Shown: piece by piece, positions 4,918-33,778 of the stretch | Position numbering within the stretch: position 1 is the stretch's first letter | How the letters are laid out: each line of letters starts with the position of its first letter | Assembly (NCBI GenBank): GCA_021734995.1 | Contig: JAIPHX010000007.1 | Span: 1 to 37,104 of the forward strand | DNA length: 37,104 bases | DNA from: Minisyncoccota bacterium | Lineage (GTDB): Bacteria; Patescibacteriota; Minisyncoccia; Phycocordibacterales; UBA9973 | Reading direction: 5' to 3' | Position numbers and translations under genes: made by a program | Notes under the pieces: generated by a model | The model's database searches: none | What the model was told of the DNA's origin: nothing | Seen by the model: the letters and a program-made list of their open reading frames with translations, nothing else

Positions 4918-6294
4918 TTACAACATTTTGTTGGCTAAGCCAATGTAATTGAGAGGAGTTATTTTAAGAAGTTCTTTTTTTGTTTTTGTGGGGATACTTA
5001 GAGATTCAATAAATTGAGCAAAATCTTCTAAAGATACTTTTTTACCACGAGTCATTGTTTTTAATGTTTCGTAAGGAAAAGGAAAACCATCTCTTCTAAG
5101 TATCGTCTGGATTGCTTCAGCCACAATTTCTGGATGTTCAATAAGTATTGTCTTCACTTTCTCTTCGTTGATTGTAATAGTATTTAGTCCTTTTAGAAGA
5201 TATTCATATGCGAGCAAAGAATGAGCAAACGCAGTACCAAAATTGCGTTCTACTGTAGAATCTGATAAATCCCTTTGTAATCTAGAAATTGATAGTTTTC
5301 TACCAAAAAATTCCAAGAGAGAATTTGCTAACCCTAGATTACCTTCGCTATTTTCAAATTTTATCGGATTAATTTTATGAGGCATAGTAGAAGATCCAAT
5401 AGTTCCATCTTTTGGTTTCTGTCCTATCCAATCATCACTAATATATCTCCACATATCTTGGTTGAAATCAATTAAAATGTTATTTATTTGTTTTACTGTA
5501 TCAAATATTTCTAGATAACTATCATGACATTCTATTTGAGTAGTCATTAGATTTGCCGAAAGTTTTTGTGTTCTATTTTTATTAAAACTTTCAATAAAAT
5601 CTCTGCTCCATTTTTGCCAATTTATTTTAGGATAAGCTACAAAATGAGCATTCCAGTTTCCAGTGGCACCATTCAGTTTGGCTTCAATCTTGATAGAGGA
5701 CAATTTTTTTAATTTCTTTTCTAACCTAACAGAAAAAACCTTAATCTCTTTTCCAAATGTAGTAGGACTTGCTGGTTGGCCATGAGTACGAGCAAGCATA
5801 GGTAAACTTTTATGTTTTTGTGCCAATAAATCCAATTGCTTTTTGACTTCTTCTAATTTAGGCTTTATCACTTTATCTAATGAGTCAGAAAGTAATAAGG
5901 AATATGCTAAGTTATTGGTGTCTTCTGATGTTAGAGCAAAATGAATCCACTCCAAGCTGTCCTTAATAGAAGTATTTGCAAGTTTTAACTTCAAAAAATA
6001 TTCAACAGCTTTCACATCATGGTCTGTGGCTTTAATGTTTTTGTATCCTCTTTTTTCAATATCACTAATTATCTGAACATCTGTATTTGATAAGTTGTAT
6101 AGATCACGGATTAAAGCTTTTTCTTTTTCTGAAAACTTTCTTAAATTTAATTTTGTTTCAGATAAAGCAATCAAATACTCCCCTTCTACTATTACACGAT
6201 ATTGCATTAATGCTTTTTCTGAAAAATATGGAATCAATGCTTTTGTATTTTCAAAATATCTTCCATCTATGGGGCTAATTTTTTCTTCTTTCAT
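4918..6294 (-). CDS. purB: Adenylosuccinate lyase
   Basis: PurB cleaves fumarate from SAICAR to give AICAR, and from adenylosuccinate to give AMP. At 458 residues it matches the Escherichia coli-type PurB length. The N-terminus ISPIDGRY, the TSEDTNNLAY segment (about residues 123-132), ARTHGQPASPTTFGKE (about 167-182) and the fumarase/aspartase signature GSSTMPHKINPIKFEN (about 301-316) are all present. The Ser in the signature loop and the His in THGQ are the expected catalytic pair. It is the last purine gene in the operon, 32 bases after purC. No Shine-Dalgarno is seen. Confidence 0.97.
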   Translation of the reverse strand: MKEEKISPIDGRYFENTKALIPYFSEKALMQYRVIVEGEYLIALSETKLNLRKFSEKEKALIRDLYNLSNTDVQIISDIEKRGYKNIKATDHDVKAVEYFLKLKLANTSIKDSLEWIHFALTSEDTNNLAYSLLLSDSLDKVIKPKLEEVKKQLDLLAQKHKSLPMLARTHGQPASPTTFGKEIKVFSVRLEKKLKKLSSIKIEAKLNGATGNWNAHFVAYPKINWQKWSRDFIESFNKNRTQKLSANLMTTQIECHDSYLEIFDTVKQINNILIDFNQDMWRYISDDWIGQKPKDGTIGSSTMPHKINPIKFENSEGNLGLANSLLEFFGRKLSISRLQRDLSDSTVERNFGTAFAHSLLAYEYLLKGLNTITINEEKVKTILIEHPEIVAEAIQTILRRDGFPFPYETLKTMTRGKKVSLEDFAQFIESLSIPTKTKKELLKITPLNYIGLANKML

Positions 6295-15454: not shown

Positions 15455-18412
15455 TTATTGAGTATTCGAAAACCTATGGTAAGCTTTTTTTAATTTAACA
15501 ATATCGGTATCTATAAATTTTTTGTTATTTGTCTCTAGAACTACAACTTTTTTATCTTTGGAAACATTTCCAATTTTTTTACAGGAAATATTAGAAAAAT
15601 GTTTTTCAAAAATCTTCGCTTTTTTTGGATCAATGGATACCAAAATTCTGCCTTGACTCTCTGAGAATATTTTTTCGTCTGGAGATACTGCGTTCCCATA
15701 AAAATCTTTCAGGGAAATTTTGGCTCCAATCATTCCCCCAACACAAGATTTCGCCAAAGCAATCGCTAAACCTCCAGAATGAATAGATATTGCAGAAGAA
15801 AGTAACTCTTTTGAAATAGCACTCTGTACAAGATTATATATTAGTGAATTTTTTTTCCAATCTACTTTAGGAACATTATTACCTATTAGTTCAATATCTT
15901 TAGCTTCATTGGCAAGCATTCTATAGTACTCACTAGCTCCCAACTCTTGATCTGTATCTCCTAGTAAATAAATACAATCACCAGCTTCTTTAAACTCAGG
16001 AGAAATTGTTTTTGATATGTCATTTGTAACACTAATAGCTGAAATCAATAACGTCGGTGGTATAGAAATCTTTATTGAATTCTCATTCTCATCATAACCC
16101 TTAAAATCATTAAACATACTATCTTTCCCAGAAATAAATGGAGTATTATATCCAATAGAATAATCATAACAAGCTTTCACAGCATCTTTTAATTGTCCCA
16201 ATCTAAATTCTTCATTAGAAGAGCACCAACAAAAATTATCCAGTAGGGCTAGTGTGTTCAAATCACCCCCTGCACAGATAATATTTCTTATTGCTGTGTC
16301 TATTGCACAAGCAGACATATCATAAGTACTTATATCTCCATAAAAAGGATACAGACTAGACGATACAACAGCTCCTTTCTTGGAATTTAGTAATGGCTTC
16401 AAAACTTGTGCATCTGTATTTATCCTTCCTTCACCAGAAATAGGTTTTAGCACTGAAGATGATTGTACTTCATGATCATATTGTTCAGAAATATATGCAA
16501 AGCTACCTATATTTAACTCACCAACTAATTTTTCAAATAATTTTGTTCTATTAGAATTTTTAGGCAACTGAGGTTCTTTGTATATTTTTTGAATATACGT
16601 AGTTTTTAAATCTTTTTCTGGTAATCCATCATGCAAAAAATCCATAGAAATATCCATGATTTTTTTATCATTATTGTACACTATACATTTCCCAGAATTA
16701 TTAAATTCACCTATAATGGTTGCCTCTACACCCCTACTATCCATTAATTTTTTGAAAACTTCCCATTTCTTTTTTGGAACAGCTAAGGTCATTCTTTCTT
16801 GTGATTCTGATATCCAAATTTCCCAAGGAGTTAATCCTTCATATTTTAAAGGTATTTTTTCTATATGCACTTCTGCCCCACCACACTCTTTAGCCATTTC
16901 AGCAACCGAACAAGACAATCCTCCTGCTCCATTGTCTGTAATACTATTATAAAGATCCATATCTCGCGCTTCTTTTACAAGAGCATCGCTTAATTTTTTT
17001 TGAGTAATTGGATCACCTATTTGCACTGCAGTAGCAGGAGAATTTGAATCCATTGTGACAGAAGAAAAAGTAGCTCCATGAATACCATCTGCTCCTACTC
17101 TACCTCCTACCATGACAACATAATCATCTACCTGAGCTTCTTTTTCGTACGAATTCTTTCCATTTATTTTTTTTGGGATAATTCCTATAGTACCAGCAAA
17201 TACAAGAGGTTTTCCTCGATATCTATCTTCATATTTTATAAAACCAGAAACAGTAGGGATACCTGAACAATTACCTCCTACATTGATACCCTTCACCACT
17301 CCATCCAAAATTCTTTTAGTAGGGAGCATTTTTTGTGTTTTGTTTTTTCCTTTATACAAAGACCTTGTGTCGTTTGGATTTCCAACACAAAAACCAAAAG
17401 TGTTAGCAATCGGTTTTGCTCCCTTTCCAAAACCTATTGCGTCTCTATTTACCCCTCCAATTCCTGTAATTGCTCCACCAAAAGGATCAAGAGCTGAAGG
17501 GCTATTATGAGTCTCTACTTTGTGGGTTATTAGATATTCATCATCAAAATCAATAGCTCCAGAATTATCAGAAAAAACAGAGACACAGAAATCTTCCTTC
17601 CCTTTTTTTTGACGAATAATTTTTGTAGATCCTTTTATATAGGTACGATAAAGACCATCTGTAATCTCATCTATTGGATTTGCAAAAATAGTATGCTTGC
17701 AGTGTTCTGACCATGTTTGAGCCAAAGATTCTATTTCTATATCAGTGGGGTCTCTGCCCAATTCAAAAAAATATTTTTGAATTACTTTCATTGAATCTAA
17801 ATCTAAAGCAAGAGGACCTCTTCTTCCATTTTCATCTAAAATACCTTCCTTCCCTATTTTTTCCAATTCTTCATCAGATACTTTTAAAGAAACTTTTTTT
17901 ACAAGTTCTTTTGTTTCTAAAATTACTTTTGGTACTTTGATAGACAGACTTCCATTGTTTATAATAGCGCTACTTTCAATTAATGGATTATGTAAAGAGA
18001 AAACTATTTTTTCTAAATCTATTTTTGTTAAACTTCCTTTGATTAAAAATATTTTAGATGTATAGACCTTCCAATTTGTATTTTTGTCTACTTGAAAAAA
18101 ATCATAAAGAGTTTCCAGTGCTGTATTTCCAATATTATCAGTTACTCCAGGCAAAAACCCTATCTCAATAGCATTTTTAAATTTAATTTTCGAAGGTAAT
18201 TCGTTTAAGAAAAATTCTTCTATATTTGGGTTTGAAAAAAGTCTTCCTATTTTTTGCAAATCTGCATCTTCTAAATCTGAATCTATAGTATAAGAATCCA
18301 AAATTTGCACAGAACTAACTTTACCTTTAATACCCAATGCGCGCCAAGATGCCATATATATTTTTTCTCTACTGTCTTTTATTTTCGGTAAAATATATAA
18401 ACGTGAAATCAT
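15455..18412 (-). CDS. purL: FGAM synthetase, PurL with fused N-terminal PurS-like region
   Basis: PurL turns FGAR into FGAM with ATP and ammonia from PurQ. At 985 residues it is neither the small PurL (about 740) nor the full fused PurL (about 1,250-1,300). The first roughly 165 residues correspond to the PurS-like N-terminal region of the large form. A linker with SEELEKIG-like sequence and LAQTWSEHCKHT (about 231-242) follows. The catalytic domains then show KVETHNSPSALDPFGGAITG, DNGAGGLSCSVAEMAKECGG and SGKDSMFND. The PurQ domain is encoded separately downstream. An exact TATAAT ends eight bases before the ATG, so a second transcript may start here. Confidence 0.96.
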   Translation of the reverse strand: MISRLYILPKIKDSREKIYMASWRALGIKGKVSSVQILDSYTIDSDLEDADLQKIGRLFSNPNIEEFFLNELPSKIKFKNAIEIGFLPGVTDNIGNTALETLYDFFQVDKNTNWKVYTSKIFLIKGSLTKIDLEKIVFSLHNPLIESSAIINNGSLSIKVPKVILETKELVKKVSLKVSDEELEKIGKEGILDENGRRGPLALDLDSMKVIQKYFFELGRDPTDIEIESLAQTWSEHCKHTIFANPIDEITDGLYRTYIKGSTKIIRQKKGKEDFCVSVFSDNSGAIDFDDEYLITHKVETHNSPSALDPFGGAITGIGGVNRDAIGFGKGAKPIANTFGFCVGNPNDTRSLYKGKNKTQKMLPTKRILDGVVKGINVGGNCSGIPTVSGFIKYEDRYRGKPLVFAGTIGIIPKKINGKNSYEKEAQVDDYVVMVGGRVGADGIHGATFSSVTMDSNSPATAVQIGDPITQKKLSDALVKEARDMDLYNSITDNGAGGLSCSVAEMAKECGGAEVHIEKIPLKYEGLTPWEIWISESQERMTLAVPKKKWEVFKKLMDSRGVEATIIGEFNNSGKCIVYNNDKKIMDISMDFLHDGLPEKDLKTTYIQKIYKEPQLPKNSNRTKLFEKLVGELNIGSFAYISEQYDHEVQSSSVLKPISGEGRINTDAQVLKPLLNSKKGAVVSSSLYPFYGDISTYDMSACAIDTAIRNIICAGGDLNTLALLDNFCWCSSNEEFRLGQLKDAVKACYDYSIGYNTPFISGKDSMFNDFKGYDENENSIKISIPPTLLISAISVTNDISKTISPEFKEAGDCIYLLGDTDQELGASEYYRMLANEAKDIELIGNNVPKVDWKKNSLIYNLVQSAISKELLSSAISIHSGGLAIALAKSCVGGMIGAKISLKDFYGNAVSPDEKIFSESQGRILVSIDPKKAKIFEKHFSNISCKKIGNVSKDKKVVVLETNNKKFIDTDIVKLKKAYHRFSNTQ

Positions 18413-18420
18413 ATTTTTAG

Positions 18421-18426
18421 ATTATA
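18421..18426 (-). promoter_or_regulatory. Candidate internal -10 box before purL
   Basis: Exact TATAAT on the minus strand ends eight bases before the purL ATG and lies in the 19-base gap after purA. No good -35 is visible, so it is a candidate only. Confidence 0.4.
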
Positions 18427-18431
18427 ACATA

Positions 18432-19814
18432 TTACCAATATTTTTCTACAGAATGATGTTCTTCTGGTCCTGTCCCCACTCGAATAATAGGTACCCCTAT
18501 CTCTTCTTCTAGAAATTGTATATACTTCACAGCCTCTTCTGGTAATTTGCCATCATAGTCAGATAATTTACCTTTCCAAATAGGGAAAGATTGGTAAACG
18601 GGTTCTATTTCTGATCTTGATATATCAAAAGGTATATTTTTTGTCTCTTGCCCATTAATTTTATATTTCACACAAACTTTAACCTCATTAAAACCAGACA
18701 AAACGTCCAACTTGGTCATTGATAATTTATCAACCCCATTTATCTTAACTGCATAATTTAATAAAGGTAAATCAAGCCACCCAGTCCTGCGTAGTCTTCC
18801 TGTGGTAGCACCAATCTCATTACCCATTCTTCTTAAAGCAACCCCTTGCTCAAAAAGGTCTTCTGAGTTTGGGTTTGGATTTGGATAAACTTCTTTTTCT
18901 TCTGTATATTTTTTATCTCTACACCAAACAGAAGATTTTTCTCCTCCAAGTTCTGTAGGGAATGGTCCTTCACCAACTTTTGTCACATATGCCTTAAAAA
19001 TACCTAAGGCTCCGCCGACTAGTTGTGATGCCACACCTAAAGCTGGAGCTATCCCTCCTGCTATTGTATGTGATGAAGTAACATAAGGATAATTACCAAA
19101 ACGAACATCTAGCAAAGTCCCTTGTGCTCCTTCAGCAACAACATTATTACCATTCTCAAATGTTTCTTGTATTAAAAGATTAGATTCTTTAACTTCAAAT
19201 GTCTTCAAAAAATCAATACCTTCTAAAAATTTATTCTCTTTTTCTGTAAAATTATCAACTTCTGGATCATATTGATAACACTCTTTTAAAATTCTAAAAT
19301 GTTCAGTTTTTAATGCTTCATATCTTTCTTTAAAATTAACATCTAAAATGTCTCCTACTCTTAAAGCTTTTCTCCATACAAAATCTGTATATGATGGTCC
19401 AATTCCACGCCCTGTGGAACCAATCTTTTTATCTCCTAATTTTTTTTCAGATATAGTATCAAGCAAGCAATGCGTCGGTAATGTAAGCACTGCATGAGGA
19501 GACACAGAAATTCTATGCTTTTCATTTTCAAAATCAGGAATTTCAATAGTTTCTTGTTTTAATGAATACGGATCAATAACCATACCTCCACCTAAATGCA
19601 TTTTTGCTTTTCCAAAAGCCCCTGAAGGTATCAAATGGAAAACAAAACATTTACCATTGTACCAAATAGTGTGTCCAGCATTATTTCCTCCTTGAAATCT
19701 AACAATGACATCATTTTCATTTAAGCTAGAGGATATTATTGCAACATCCTTACCTTTCCCTTCATCTCCCCATTGAAGCCCTATTACAGGCATTATTTTA
19801 TTTTTTGTAAACAT
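18432..19814 (-). CDS. purA: Adenylosuccinate synthetase
   Basis: PurA joins IMP and aspartate with GTP to make adenylosuccinate. The 460-residue sequence carries the N-terminal GLQWGDEGKGK P-loop (about residues 12-22), RFQGGNNAGHT (about 38-48) with the conserved His, GSTGRGIGPSY (about 131-141), GAQGTLLD and TTGRLRRTGWLDL near residue 345. ATG 19814 gives MFTKNKIMPVIG. An ATG seven codons later would also give a full enzyme and cannot be excluded. With purB in the same operon, the whole IMP-to-AMP branch is encoded. It is 16 bases downstream of guaB. Confidence 0.97.
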   Translation of the reverse strand: MFTKNKIMPVIGLQWGDEGKGKDVAIISSSLNENDVIVRFQGGNNAGHTIWYNGKCFVFHLIPSGAFGKAKMHLGGGMVIDPYSLKQETIEIPDFENEKHRISVSPHAVLTLPTHCLLDTISEKKLGDKKIGSTGRGIGPSYTDFVWRKALRVGDILDVNFKERYEALKTEHFRILKECYQYDPEVDNFTEKENKFLEGIDFLKTFEVKESNLLIQETFENGNNVVAEGAQGTLLDVRFGNYPYVTSSHTIAGGIAPALGVASQLVGGALGIFKAYVTKVGEGPFPTELGGEKSSVWCRDKKYTEEKEVYPNPNPNSEDLFEQGVALRRMGNEIGATTGRLRRTGWLDLPLLNYAVKINGVDKLSMTKLDVLSGFNEVKVCVKYKINGQETKNIPFDISRSEIEPVYQSFPIWKGKLSDYDGKLPEEAVKYIQFLEEEIGVPIIRVGTGPEEHHSVEKYW

Positions 19815-19830
19815 TATATTTTAATTATGT

Positions 19831-21303
19831 TTATTGTTTATAATTAGGTGTTGGATCAACCATAAAAATATCATGAATATGGCTTTCTCTAAGACCTGAG
19901 TTAGTAATAATGTAAAAAGATGCTTCACGAGTATCTGTAATCTTTTTTGCTCCTATATATCCCATTCCAGACCTTAGACCCCCAATATACTGATGAACAA
20001 CATCAGACAATGAACCTTTGTATGGCACATGAGCAGAAACTCCTTCAGGAACTAATTTTGTAGTGTCATATTGTTCTTCTTGAAAATATCTATCTTTGGA
20101 ACCTTTTTGCATGGCATCAATTGACCCCATTCCTCTGTATTTTTTAAATTTTTGGTTGTTGGCAATAATAGTGTCTCCAGGAGATTCATCTGTACCAGCA
20201 AAAGCACTACCCATCATTACAATATTTGCACCAAAAGCAAATGCTTTGACTACATCACCGCTATATTTAATACCTCCGTCTGCAATAATAGGTAAATCCA
20301 AAGAAGCACAAGCTTTATAAACATCAGCCACAGCGGAAAGTTGGGGCACTCCTACTCCTGATACAATCCTAGTAGTACAAATAGAACCAGGACCTATCCC
20401 TACCTTTACAGCACTAACTCCAGCTTTATACAAAGCTTTAGCAGCCTCACCTGTAGCAATATTTCCACCAATAATGTCTAGCTTTGGATATATTGAATGG
20501 ATTTTTTTAACCATTTCAATTACATTTTTAGAATGACCATGAGCAGTATCTACACAAATAAAATCCACTTCACTTTCCACTAATGCTTTTACTCTATCTA
20601 AAGTATCTATTGAGGTTCCCACAGCCGCTCCTACTTGCAACCTACCTAGCTTGTCTTTAGTAGCTAATGGATATTCTTTACTCTTTGCCATATCACGGTA
20701 AGTAATAAGTCCAACCAAAACACCTTTTTTGTTGATTAATGGTAATTTTTCAATTCCATATTTTTTAAAAATCTTATTTGCTTCTTGAATAGAGGTGTCT
20801 TCATTACCAGTAATTAACTCTTTTGTCATTATTTCAATAATAGGAGTTTTTATATTTTTTTCAAAACGCAAATCACGATGAGTAATAATTCCTTTTAATA
20901 CACCGCTATCATCTACAATAGGAATGCCTCCAATTTTATATTTATTTTGTATATCTAACGCATCCCCTACATTTCCTGATATGTTTAGGGTAATAGGATC
21001 TACTATCTTACCAGCTTCATATCTTTTAACTTTAGAAACTTCCGACGCTTGTTCTCCTATTGAAAGATTTTTATGAATTACCCCTATACCTCCAAGCTGA
21101 GCCATACCTATTGCCATAGCAGATTCAGTCACAGTATCCATCGCAGCAGACATAAAAGGGACATCCAGCCATATATTTTTTGTTAGTTTTGTTTTAATAT
21201 CAACATCTTTTGGTAATACTTCACTATATCCAGGGGCAAGTAAAACATCATCAAAAGTGAGACCTTGACCTAGATTTTTGGGAGATATATTTTTTTTAAT
21301 CAT
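19831..21303 (-). CDS. guaB: IMP dehydrogenase
   Basis: GuaB oxidises IMP to XMP with NAD, the first step to GMP. At 490 residues it is full length. The catalytic barrel begins [17 protein letters not shown] (about residues 15-31), is interrupted by two CBS domains (about 95-205, [20 protein letters not shown] and [20 protein letters not shown]), then resumes. The active-site loop [18 protein letters not shown] contains the catalytic Cys, and the flap region [18 protein letters not shown] follows. guaA is not in the window. It is 29 bases after zwf, and TAAGAT ends six bases before its ATG, so it may start a separate near-leaderless transcript. Confidence 0.97.
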
Positions 21304-30607: not shown

Positions 30608-32332
30608 CTAATATATCTCCTGCTGATAACATTTTTCACAATACACTATATCTGGTTGATCAAGGGAATAAGAAGTTCTAAAAGACGCATCACATTTACC
30701 TTCAAGATGTGTATGTTTTTTATTACACATACACGCACGATCATATAATTTAATTTTATTAATAAATTGATAACGATCTAGAAAACGACAATTATGACAT
30801 TTATGTGGTATTGGTATTCCAATGCGTTTATAAAACTGAAATTCATTATTAATAATCCGATAGGCACGCTTACAACTTTCACATTGAATTACTTCATTTA
30901 ATATATCTTCAGAAACATTTTTAATTGAATCTGCTAAATCTTTAGCGATAATCGTTATATCAAATTCACGGGGGTTTGGTTCACGCCACAAGAATCCTTT
31001 TTCTTTTGCTTCTTTAGAATCTAATGGAATGTAATCTTGTACCAAACTTTCATTGTATGCTAATGGAGAAAATTCAGCAGGGAAAAATTCACCATATTTA
31101 AATTTTCTATTTAAAGAATCTACATAAGGTAATTCATCCATATGTTTTATAATCTTTTCTCTTAATTCAAAGTATTCTTCTTTGGTATATTGTTTATTTA
31201 AAATACAATATTGCTTATTTTTTAAACCTACACAACCAAAACAATTGGAAGATCCTACGCAATATGCAGAATATTCTAAGTCCCTTGACTCTTCCCAGCA
31301 ATTAAAAGAATATTTTAGATTATATACACCCTCCCCACAAGTAACACATTCATATGCATTTTCAGCCCCTAGGAATAGTTGGACACAATCATAGGAATTA
31401 GTAGCTTTTAATACGCTGATTTGGACATACCTCAGATTCTCTCCTCCCTGAATTGAGACAGAGTCTAAGACATTTTTTGAATCACTAATCCTTTCCCCTG
31501 TGCAATTTATATTTCTGATACCATGATAATATTTTACTGGAAATTTTTTCCAAAAATCTAAAACTTTTTGACGTAGAGATATTATTGATTGATGAGAATC
31601 TAAATTCAATTGAGATATTTTATTTTCATATTCTTCTTTAGATAATGGTTCATTAAAAAAATAATAAGATTTACCCGTTAGATTTACACAACCAAAACAA
31701 TTAGTACAAGCTTTAAGTCCTTTAGAAAACCACACATCTACACAGCTTTCACAATCTAAAGAAAAAAATGTTCTATAAGATTTATATACCATTACATCTT
31801 CATAGCAAAGCTCATTTTCTATAACTTCGTGGGAATCAAAAGAATTATTCACATTAGTTGCTTTAACAAGATATGCTGAGTTTTCTACAAAATCAGCATC
31901 AAAACATAGATATGCATTACGTAAACTACTTACTTCATTACAATAATCAGAATTAACCATAAAACCAGCAGTGGATTTAGCAGGTAGTGGTACCTTAGAA
32001 AATAATTCCTTGAACTGTTCAAAAAAAGGTTTAGAAAAATCATAACTCATTTGATAATCTGTAGGATCCCATTGGTCTCCAAACCAATAATCATTTTCAT
32101 AAGTATTCAAATTAGCTTCTGGAGGAAATCCAGAAAATAAATCTTTATCTGTAAGTGCATTTTTTCTACGAAATAGACTACGCTCATTTCTAAATACTAG
32201 ACGGCGAACCATTCTACATTCTGAGCACCAAGAAGGTAATGGAACTTTCATTCTTTCATAAAAAAGTAAATCATTAGACTCAATAAGGAAGTCTTTTTTG
32301 CAGTTTTGACATGCTTTAGTTTCTGTCTCCAT
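30608..32332 (-). CDS. Large cysteine-rich protein with zinc ribbons at both ends, function unknown
   Basis: The 574-residue product has no signal peptide or membrane segment. Cys8/Cys11 and Cys36/Cys39 form one CxxC...CxxC ribbon with LLFYERMKVPLPSWC between. Cys484/Cys487 and Cys512/Cys515 form a near-copy near the C-terminus (FQFYKRIGIPIPHKC). More Cys follow at 534, 536, 547, 565 and 568. The centre repeats NCFGCVxLxxKxY...N...(S/T)KEEY twice and has many Asn-Ala/Ser-Tyr-x-Cys steps suggesting a solenoid. I associate this type with CPR genomes, but know of no function. An extended -10 TGG-TAATAT ends six bases before the ATG. Confidence 0.8.
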   Translation of the reverse strand: METETKACQNCKKDFLIESNDLLFYERMKVPLPSWCSECRMVRRLVFRNERSLFRRKNALTDKDLFSGFPPEANLNTYENDYWFGDQWDPTDYQMSYDFSKPFFEQFKELFSKVPLPAKSTAGFMVNSDYCNEVSSLRNAYLCFDADFVENSAYLVKATNVNNSFDSHEVIENELCYEDVMVYKSYRTFFSLDCESCVDVWFSKGLKACTNCFGCVNLTGKSYYFFNEPLSKEEYENKISQLNLDSHQSIISLRQKVLDFWKKFPVKYYHGIRNINCTGERISDSKNVLDSVSIQGGENLRYVQISVLKATNSYDCVQLFLGAENAYECVTCGEGVYNLKYSFNCWEESRDLEYSAYCVGSSNCFGCVGLKNKQYCILNKQYTKEEYFELREKIIKHMDELPYVDSLNRKFKYGEFFPAEFSPLAYNESLVQDYIPLDSKEAKEKGFLWREPNPREFDITIIAKDLADSIKNVSEDILNEVIQCESCKRAYRIINNEFQFYKRIGIPIPHKCHNCRFLDRYQFINKIKLYDRACMCNKKHTHLEGKCDASFRTSYSLDQPDIVYCEKCYQQEIY

Positions 32333-32439: not shown

Positions 32440-33147
32440 TTACATTACTTTTTTTATCTTTTCAAAAAGAGGCTGGTAGATATCCTCTCTGGGGTTGATA
32501 ATAAGTTCTTTTTTATTAACCTTATTCACAAATTCAACAGGAACATCTAAAACCAAAGCAAGTGGATATTGTTCTTTCCCTTCTCCCATACAAAGAACTG
32601 CACTAGTCGCCAAGCTATCTGCAATGTCAGTTTTAGACATTTTTAACTTTCTGCCAAAAATATCTTTTTTACCAACATAATTTCTAATTCCTTTAAATCC
32701 TGCATAACCCAAAGCAACACCGACAACTCCAGCACGTAATGGGAAAAGCCTGCTATCAGTAATCAAGACACCTAATTGTTTAATCTTAAATATTTTTTTA
32801 AATTCTCTTCTCAACAGATCAGCAGAACGAAAACTATCTTTTGGTAAAAGAATAATTTTTCCATTTGCATTAGACTCATCAACACCAGATGAAGACATCA
32901 CCATTCCATCCTTTATGGTAAGCCATACATACTTTGTTTTAATAGCAAAATCGCTTTCTTTTTTTATAAGTTTTATTTTTTCCTCTTCATCTTTACATAT
33001 AGCTATTCTTCCTTCTGAAAGTGCAACGATCTTTGAAGTCACAACTATAATCGATTTCTCTGGAAGTTTTTTTATATATCTTTTGATAAATTCTACTAAA
33101 TTCTCATTCTCTTTAAAAACTCGTGTTTTAATTGGTTGTATTTTCAT
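32440..33147 (-). CDS. CofE-like F420-0:gamma-L-glutamate ligase family protein
   Basis: The 235-residue product matches the CofE family, which in F420 producers adds L-glutamate to F420-0 with GTP. Family marks are VVTSKIVALSEGR (about residues 35-47), SSSGVDESNANGK (about 85-97), LPKDSFRSADLLRREF, LGVLITDSRLFPLRAGVVGVALG (about 125-147, Asp131-Ser132) and YVGKKDIFGRKLKMSKTDIAD. No other F420 gene is in the window, so the substrate is doubtful; it could be a related glutamyl or amide ligase. It overlaps the transporter gene by 20 bases. The chosen ATG at 33147 lies inside that upstream gene, consistent with coupling. Confidence 0.87.
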   Translation of the reverse strand: MKIQPIKTRVFKENENLVEFIKRYIKKLPEKSIIVVTSKIVALSEGRIAICKDEEEKIKLIKKESDFAIKTKYVWLTIKDGMVMSSSGVDESNANGKIILLPKDSFRSADLLRREFKKIFKIKQLGVLITDSRLFPLRAGVVGVALGYAGFKGIRNYVGKKDIFGRKLKMSKTDIADSLATSAVLCMGEGKEQYPLALVLDVPVEFVNKVNKKELIINPREDIYQPLFEKIKKVM

Positions 33148-33778
33148 AATGTTTTTTTTCTTTTAAAAAATAAATTCCTAAGTAAGAAAGAGGAGTGTAC
33201 AAAAACCCCAAGAGTACTTTATAGATCCACCATGGAATAATGATTAATACTATTGCTTTTAATGGCATAACCCCCAGGTAAGCAATAACCATAAATATCA
33301 CTGAATCCAATAACTGCGACCATATATTAGAAAGGTTGGATCTCAACCAAAAATATTTATTATTAAATTTATTTTTAAAGAAGAAAAAAGAAAAAACATC
33401 TTGATATTCTGCAATAACAAAGGCCACAAGTGATGCAATTGAAAAACGAACAGAGAGACCAAATATCTGCTCATATCCATCTTTTACCCATAATCCATCT
33501 TTAGACCATGGCATAAGAGCTGATATAATAGAATACATTAAAAATATAATTATACTCACTACTCCTGCAAAAACAAAATTCTTTGCCATTTTTTTCCCAT
33601 AAATTTCACCAATTACATCTGTCATTATAAAAATTATTGGAAAAGAAAAAATAGCTACTGATAAGTGAGTGCCAAACAAAAATGGCATTAATTTTACCCC
33701 TAAAGTATTGGCTGCAAAAAGTGAAGTAACATATATAGCAAGACAAATAAAAATCTTTTTTAAGTTTGGATTATCCAT
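33128..33778 (-). CDS. Queuosine-precursor transporter family protein (VUT/YhhQ)
   Basis: The 216-residue product has about six helices. The family motifs are LGVKLMPFLFGTHLSVAIFSFPIIFIMTDVIGEIYGKK (split here as LGVKLMPFL then SFPIIFIMTDVIGEIYG, about residues 26-63) and LRSNLSNIWSQLLDSVIFMVIAYLG (in the C-terminal half). YhhQ in E. coli imports 7-deazaguanine precursors of queuosine. The family assignment is good, the substrate inferred. It overlaps the CofE-like gene by 20 bases, so the two are probably made together. TTTAAT ends five bases before the ATG, and a hairpin lies upstream. Confidence 0.88.
   Translation of the reverse strand: MDNPNLKKIFICLAIYVTSLFAANTLGVKLMPFLFGTHLSVAIFSFPIIFIMTDVIGEIYGKKMAKNFVFAGVVSIIIFLMYSIISALMPWSKDGLWVKDGYEQIFGLSVRFSIASLVAFVIAEYQDVFSFFFFKNKFNNKYFWLRSNLSNIWSQLLDSVIFMVIAYLGVMPLKAIVLIIIPWWIYKVLLGFLYTPLSYLGIYFLKEKKHYENTTN

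Follow-up and report, generated by a model that had tools for sequence, protein, structure and literature searches.

Zinc-Ribbon Proteins with Two Predicted Beta-Solenoids, Encoded beside VirD4-Like ATPases in Patescibacteria: Candidate Cargo-Recognition Subunits

The window, by which we mean the entire 37,104-nucleotide stretch of DNA that was analyzed, encodes on its minus strand a Cys-rich protein of 574 amino acids (positions 30608–32332; start codon ATG), delimited by its open reading frame and an alignment of 98 family members. The question raised by this gene is what such a protein does. A first-pass annotation described matching zinc ribbons at both ends and a repeated center, and proposed a scaffold role or the binding of nucleic acids or proteins in a CPR-specific family. 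Hydropathy analysis of the window protein revealed no transmembrane segment and no hydrophobic N-terminal segment; the first ribbon begins at the protein start. Searches of Pfam, NCBIfam, PHROGs, PADLOC, and (by sequence) the PDB yielded no significant match for the center of the protein, the window protein alone had a significant match in none of the family libraries searched, and a literature search found no description of the family. A close match to a characterized family, which the annotation had named as a refutation of its claims, was thus not found in these libraries or the PDB for the center of the protein.

Architecture of the protein

Over a stretch of 53 residues the two terminal ribbons can be aligned without a single gap (local score of 109 versus a maximum of 50 among 2,000 shuffles), and the two ends therefore match as claimed. 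Their description as near-identical was overstated: the CxxC, FYxRxxxPxPxxC, and CxxCR motifs are common to both, but most other positions differ. A lack of conservation of the Cys pairs, also named beforehand as a refutation, was not borne out: apart from those of ribbon 2 (see below), the ribbon Cys are kept in 80–100% of 98 relatives. In that alignment C8, C36, C534, C565, and C568 are invariant (98 of 98), C11, C39, and C547 are kept in 99%, and C484, C487, C512, and C515 are kept in 80–96%.

Ribbon 1 (residues 5–45; positions 32198–32320, with this and all features below on the minus strand) is a putative zf_Tbcl-like treble clef in which Cys 8, 11, 36, and 39, kept in 99–100% of relatives, form the CxxC ... 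CxxCR metal-ligand pattern of zf_Tbcl. The PF13451 (zf_Tbcl) profile matched 10 of 20 members (best E of 2.4e-6); the window protein itself scored 10.9 bits, below the gathering cut-off of 24 (E of 0.47). Ribbon 2 (residues 53–90; positions 32063–32176), assigned from family columns to the CxxC-x17-CxxC type, is degenerate: Cys occupy its columns (residues ~58–82) in 47–68% of the family and have been lost from the window copy, leaving three intact ribbons. Ribbon 3 (residues 481–520; positions 30773–30892; Cys 484, 487, 512, and 515) aligns with ribbon 1 and is likewise putatively zf_Tbcl-like. Ribbon 4 (residues 528–574; positions 30611–30751; Cys 534, 547, 565, and 568) is provisionally assigned to the CxxC-x17-CxxC type by conservation and by profile matches of other members to TIGR04272 (8 of 20) and PF23477 (10 of 20), the window copy being unmatched. 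Many members carry the exact CxxC-x17-CxxC spacing at the C-terminus, and others, including the window copy, have an insert in the first pair. From these profiles and Cys patterns, the ends are predicted to be treble-clef ribbons of the zf_Tbcl and zf_Tbcl_2/CxxC-x17-CxxC type, with the pairing of zf_Tbcl (PF13451) and zf_Tbcl_2 (PF23477)/TIGR04272 present at both ends of family proteins. In stand-alone ribbon-pair proteins of ~100 amino acids from other Patescibacteria the pair is the whole protein, whereas here two pairs flank two solenoids.

The repeated center was also recovered. The NCFGCV...KEEY motif is present at residues 211–235 (positions 31628–31702) and again at residues 363–387 (positions 31172–31246), and the two central halves align with a score of 107 versus at most 60 among 2,000 shuffles. 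The center is confidently predicted, from models and periodicity, to comprise two beta-solenoids with 12-residue turns, one at residues 127–230 (positions 31643–31954) and the other at residues 267–382 (positions 31187–31534). In the alignment, solenoid 1 has a periodicity of 3.0 in Cys frequency and of 12 in column entropy, and solenoid 2 has an entropy period of ~12.9 with small insertions. Arranged in rows of 12, solenoid 1, to which the analysis of faces was confined, has small or hydrophobic residues at positions 2, 5, 8, and 11 (34% Cys and 22% Ser), conserved residues at positions 12, 1, 3, and 4, and hypervariable residues at positions 6, 7, 9, and 10. The conserved and variable faces differ in mean entropy (1.7 versus 3.1 bits, p = 3.7e-6). 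Across the family, inner Cys are swapped for Ser, Leu, Val, and Ala.

An AlphaFold2 model built from the 98-sequence alignment (pLDDT of 88.8, pTM of 0.89) has the order ribbon-solenoid-solenoid-ribbon, with pLDDT of only 58–79 for the opening coils of solenoid 1 and across much of solenoid 2. Each modeled solenoid (~127–230 and 267–382) is closed by the NCFGCV...KEEY motif and a helix; the model places a helical segment behind solenoid 1 (residues 231–262; positions 31547–31642) and a helix and linker behind solenoid 2 (residues 383–480; positions 30893–31186). A second AlphaFold model, of a natural solenoid-only protein, also contains solenoid strands (pLDDT of 78, pTM of 0.67). The predicted structures and the 12- and 3-residue periodicities support the beta-solenoid that the annotation had put forward for testing.

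By structural alignment, model 1 is closest to left-handed helices and model 2 to right-handed helices. The beta-helices that were matched have turns of 18 and about 22 residues. Because 113 model residues align with 174 or 205 residues of these helices, a turn in the present family would comprise ~12 residues. Foldseek returned no match with E below 1e-3 for either model, and we claim no structural relative because the best VIA Z values (5.0 for model 1 and 7.1 for model 2) fall within the range of common arrangements. Left-handed beta-helix acyltransferases and gamma carbonic anhydrases, which have 18-residue hexapeptide coils, were rejected given the 12-residue coil and best Z of 5.0 obtained here. 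Antifreeze proteins of the beetles Tenebrio and Dorcus (TCTxSxNCxxAx; PMC8038014) likewise have a 12-residue coil with inner positions 2, 5, 8, and 11 and a Cys-rich core, and the same inward and outward register has been reported for them (PMC8038014). This likeness is one of coil pattern alone and no sequence relationship is claimed: the beetle proteins are secreted, disulfide-bonded, and display a TxT ice face, whereas the present family has no TxT rows, its position 8 is often not Cys, and the window protein has no N-terminal hydrophobic segment. The absence of the Tenebrio protein from both lists of structural matches carries no weight either way.

Distribution and diversification of the family

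The genome that harbors the window encodes seven family copies, and a single array holds six of these. The 36 genomes of the genus sampled first, this one included, encode 1–22 copies each (median of about 10), often in arrays; one member of the genus sampled later encodes none. No copy was found in 24 genomes from other families of the order. A phylum-wide sample gave matches in 41 of 380 genomes, with full-length copies in roughly thirty (about 8%). Named matches were all from Patescibacteria, apart from unclassified bins and a probably mislabeled record with Burkholderiales in its title; non-CPR genomes were covered by a single scan of genome contigs. A viral origin was rejected, given one partial match among 2.9 million viral contigs and no significant viral fold match. 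As far as searched, these results uphold the proposal of a CPR-specific family.

Nearly all of the data derive from metagenome-assembled genomes in which genes were called by a simple longest-ORF method. Family copies in L068 and L065 are split into many short ORFs and are probably decayed genes or frameshifted assemblies. Natural splits also occur, including a ribbon pair whose gene neighbors that of a separate double solenoid, stand-alone ribbon pairs, and single-solenoid proteins.

The variable face is where paralogs differ most. Members a2–a6 of the array in the window's genome share 83–94% identity over the 40 leading alignment columns and up to 100% over the final 40 but mostly 18–45% in the solenoids, and the same contrast is seen in DNA. 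In a survey of part of the genus copies (103 from 29 genomes), pairs from the same genome had a mean identity of 0.19 on the variable face versus 0.61 in ribbon 1. No same-genome pair had a face identity of at least 0.5; 54 of the 103 copies had a partner in another genome with a face identity of at least 0.6. Orthologs of the window copy in three genomes (G012, G023, and G016) are 70–76% identical to it with a nearly unchanged face, and a more distant copy (G004, 60%) has a diverged face. Comparison of the window copy with the three close orthologs gives a dN/dS of 0.08–0.17 for the variable face, the synonymous sites being close to saturation. Between species, the window copy's face is therefore under strong purifying selection, and the overall pattern is that of stable, distinct specificities. 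An arms race or antigenic variation is not favored for the window copy, because its variable face is conserved between species.

Genomic linkage to VirD4-like ATPases

The largest cluster of neighbors around 196 family genes comprised VirD4/TrwB/HerA-like ATPases (29 in 22 loci). In 12 of 20 genomes from outside the genus that encode a ~745-aa ATPase of this kind, a family gene lay directly next to it, and in 17 of the 20 it was no more than two genes away. For a second type of VirD4-like ATPase from these same genomes, the corresponding count was 0 of 20 (Fisher p of 2.6e-8 on the assumption of independent genomes, although the 20 partly share ancestry). These genomes span eight families, with at least one linked case in each. 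Within the genus, an ATPase type of 700 aa, whose representative in the window's genome has 765 aa, lies within 5 kb of a family gene in at least 23 of 32 genomes and carries a zf_Tbcl_2/CxxC-x17-CxxC ribbon (E of 3.6e-11). The ~745-aa ATPases fall into a single clade (support of 0.98) with the ~500-aa type to which the family is linked within the genus; a few family loci adjoin ATPases of other clades. Walker A is intact in the linked ~745-aa ATPases, a predicted transmembrane segment is absent from 19 of 20, and an N-terminal one was predicted in 0 of 20. Every sampled genome encodes VirD4-like ATPases, genus members without the family included, and the motor therefore does not need the family proteins.

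Single-solenoid proteins, which are distant relatives (profile E of about 1e-11), were detected in six sampled genomes, one per genome and always beside the motor. Their gene lies directly behind a VirD4-like ATPase in G249, G438, G362, G405, and G126, and in G346 the single-solenoid relative is fused to the C-terminus of such an ATPase. Outside the genus, the arrays of 12 loci have TrmB-like HTH regulators (named by eye) as neighbors, often in divergent orientation, and one is also beside the ATPase-solenoid pair of G249.

In the window's genome, the minus-strand order is grpE, the array, dnaK, a 765-aa ATPase, a 481-aa ATPase, and dnaJ. The two ATPase genes between dnaK and dnaJ are at L162 490–2787 and L161 1468–2913; in the product of the former, a zinc ribbon follows the ATPase core, and the tail is long, charged, and of low complexity. 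Three unrelated ORFs within the array (L027 9029–9946, 9949–10671, and 12453–13367) were judged by eye to encode quinone-reductase-like, alpha/beta-hydrolase-like, and membrane-anchored proteins.

The window copy itself has no adjacent ATPase, adjacency being limited to array paralogs and relatives elsewhere. Its own neighbors (MazG-like, NUDIX, and F420 ligase-like) were dropped as evidence since the closest orthologs do not share them. The gene adjoining it encodes a F420-0:gamma-glutamyl ligase-like protein (positions 32440–33147; PF01996, E of 3e-38), and positions 33128–33778 encode a putative vitamin uptake transporter, Vut_1 (PF02592, E of 1.4e-38). The window also carries purine nucleotide genes on one strand (positions 4918–6294 and 15455–21303), encoding a PurB-like lyase, a 985-aa PurL-like AIRS protein, PurA, and IMP dehydrogenase, which is unusual in a streamlined CPR genome.

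Candidate functions and comparison with known systems

We propose, with a probability of roughly 40%, that family members serve a soluble VirD4-type motor as exchangeable subunits for cargo recognition, because one relative is fused to such a motor, paralog faces are stable, the ends are constant, the proteins are acidic without an export signal, and the genes are specifically linked to soluble motors. Gene neighborhood is not proof of binding to the ATPase, which we infer. The window protein would belong to a diversified group of recognition proteins that act in the cytosol with a soluble VirD4-like ATPase. Its treble-clef ends would bind zinc and be the constant part, probably docking to the ATPase or to one another, and a ribbon of the same class is present on one ATPase of the pair beside the array in the window's genome. 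The two 12-residue beta-solenoids would form a rigid rod with one conserved and one paralog-specific face. Through its own face, each paralog would recognize one specific cargo, which is probably a protein, and present it to the motor for unfolding or translocation. The scaffold or binding role suggested at the outset is compatible with these results.

The main rival, which we regard as unlikely, holds that the proteins are themselves cargo, that is, effectors or host-contact proteins fed by a VirD4-like motor into an export channel, with the conserved ends acting as an export tag and the variable solenoids binding host molecules. A multi-copy array family with constant ends and differing centers in bacteria thought to be host-dependent fits this reading, as do the adjoining VirD4-like ATPases and the TrmB-type regulators often divergent from the arrays. 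However, the fusion in G346 is what one would expect of a subunit rather than of an exported substrate, the window copy's face is subject to selection between species that is purifying rather than diversifying, the linked ATPases lack membrane anchors, and genomes with single-solenoid relatives have just one such protein, always beside the motor.

The position of the genus arrays in the grpE...dnaK...dnaJ region would fit accessory proteins of the DnaK system, with solenoids that bind unfolded clients and ribbons that resemble the zinc part of DnaJ, but we consider this improbable given that the recurrent neighbors outside the genus are the ATPase and TrmB and not chaperones. It is distinctly improbable that these are DNA- or RNA-binding proteins partnering a HerA/VirD4-type nucleic-acid translocase: treble-clef ribbons and the similarity of the linked ATPase to the central domains of TrwB and HerA agree with such a role, but the protein is acidic (pI of 5.5; family median of 6.2) and the variable faces are not basic. 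The nucleic-acid binding raised in the first-pass annotation is therefore not favored. A metal or thiol buffer, in which the solenoid-internal Cys ladder stores metal or forms disulfides, would account for 20–47 Cys per protein and for Cys at one third of inner solenoid positions, but is very improbable because the inner Cys are swapped as in a packed core and paralog-specific faces would serve no purpose.

Extending the recognition-subunit reading, we tentatively suggest, as a rather doubtful possibility, a modular sorting system of ultra-small bacteria in which soluble VirD4-type motors work with exchangeable solenoid "readers," as many as about 20 in a set particular to each genome, and the outward face shared between species is a fixed address code. 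If so, recognition would take up as much as about 5% of the DNA of a streamlined genome (at 1.74 kb per copy, 22 copies fill nearly 5% of 800 kb). The large paralog expansion occurs in genomes of only 400–1,400 kb. The family would also provide a 12-residue solenoid that is intracellular and whose faces form a natural library. It is absent from the libraries searched; its treble-clef ribbons, beta-solenoid, and VirD4-type motor are of known kinds.

The linked ATPases belong to the same class as the VirD4 (T4CP) homologs of Patescibacteria, for which the relevant passages of one survey give 5,713 homologs in 2,918 genomes with only 148 near virB4 (PMC12102498). In those passages the homologs lie mostly away from virB4, exaptation is left open by the authors, and no linked solenoid protein is reported (PMC12102498). 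Thousands of VirD4-like ATPases are encoded in Patescibacteria, most of them distant from type IV secretion genes and with no known partner, and the present family offers a specific, testable partner for one clade of them. The Legionella DotL-DotM-DotN-IcmSW complex (PMC7280309) provides a model of how such a partnership might work, as a VirD4-family ATPase with separate cargo-recognition subunits, some of which sit on the C-terminal tail of DotL (PMC7280309). DotL is membrane-embedded, whereas the linked motors here are predicted to be soluble and the family supplies many exchangeable paralogs; the likeness proposed is one of function.
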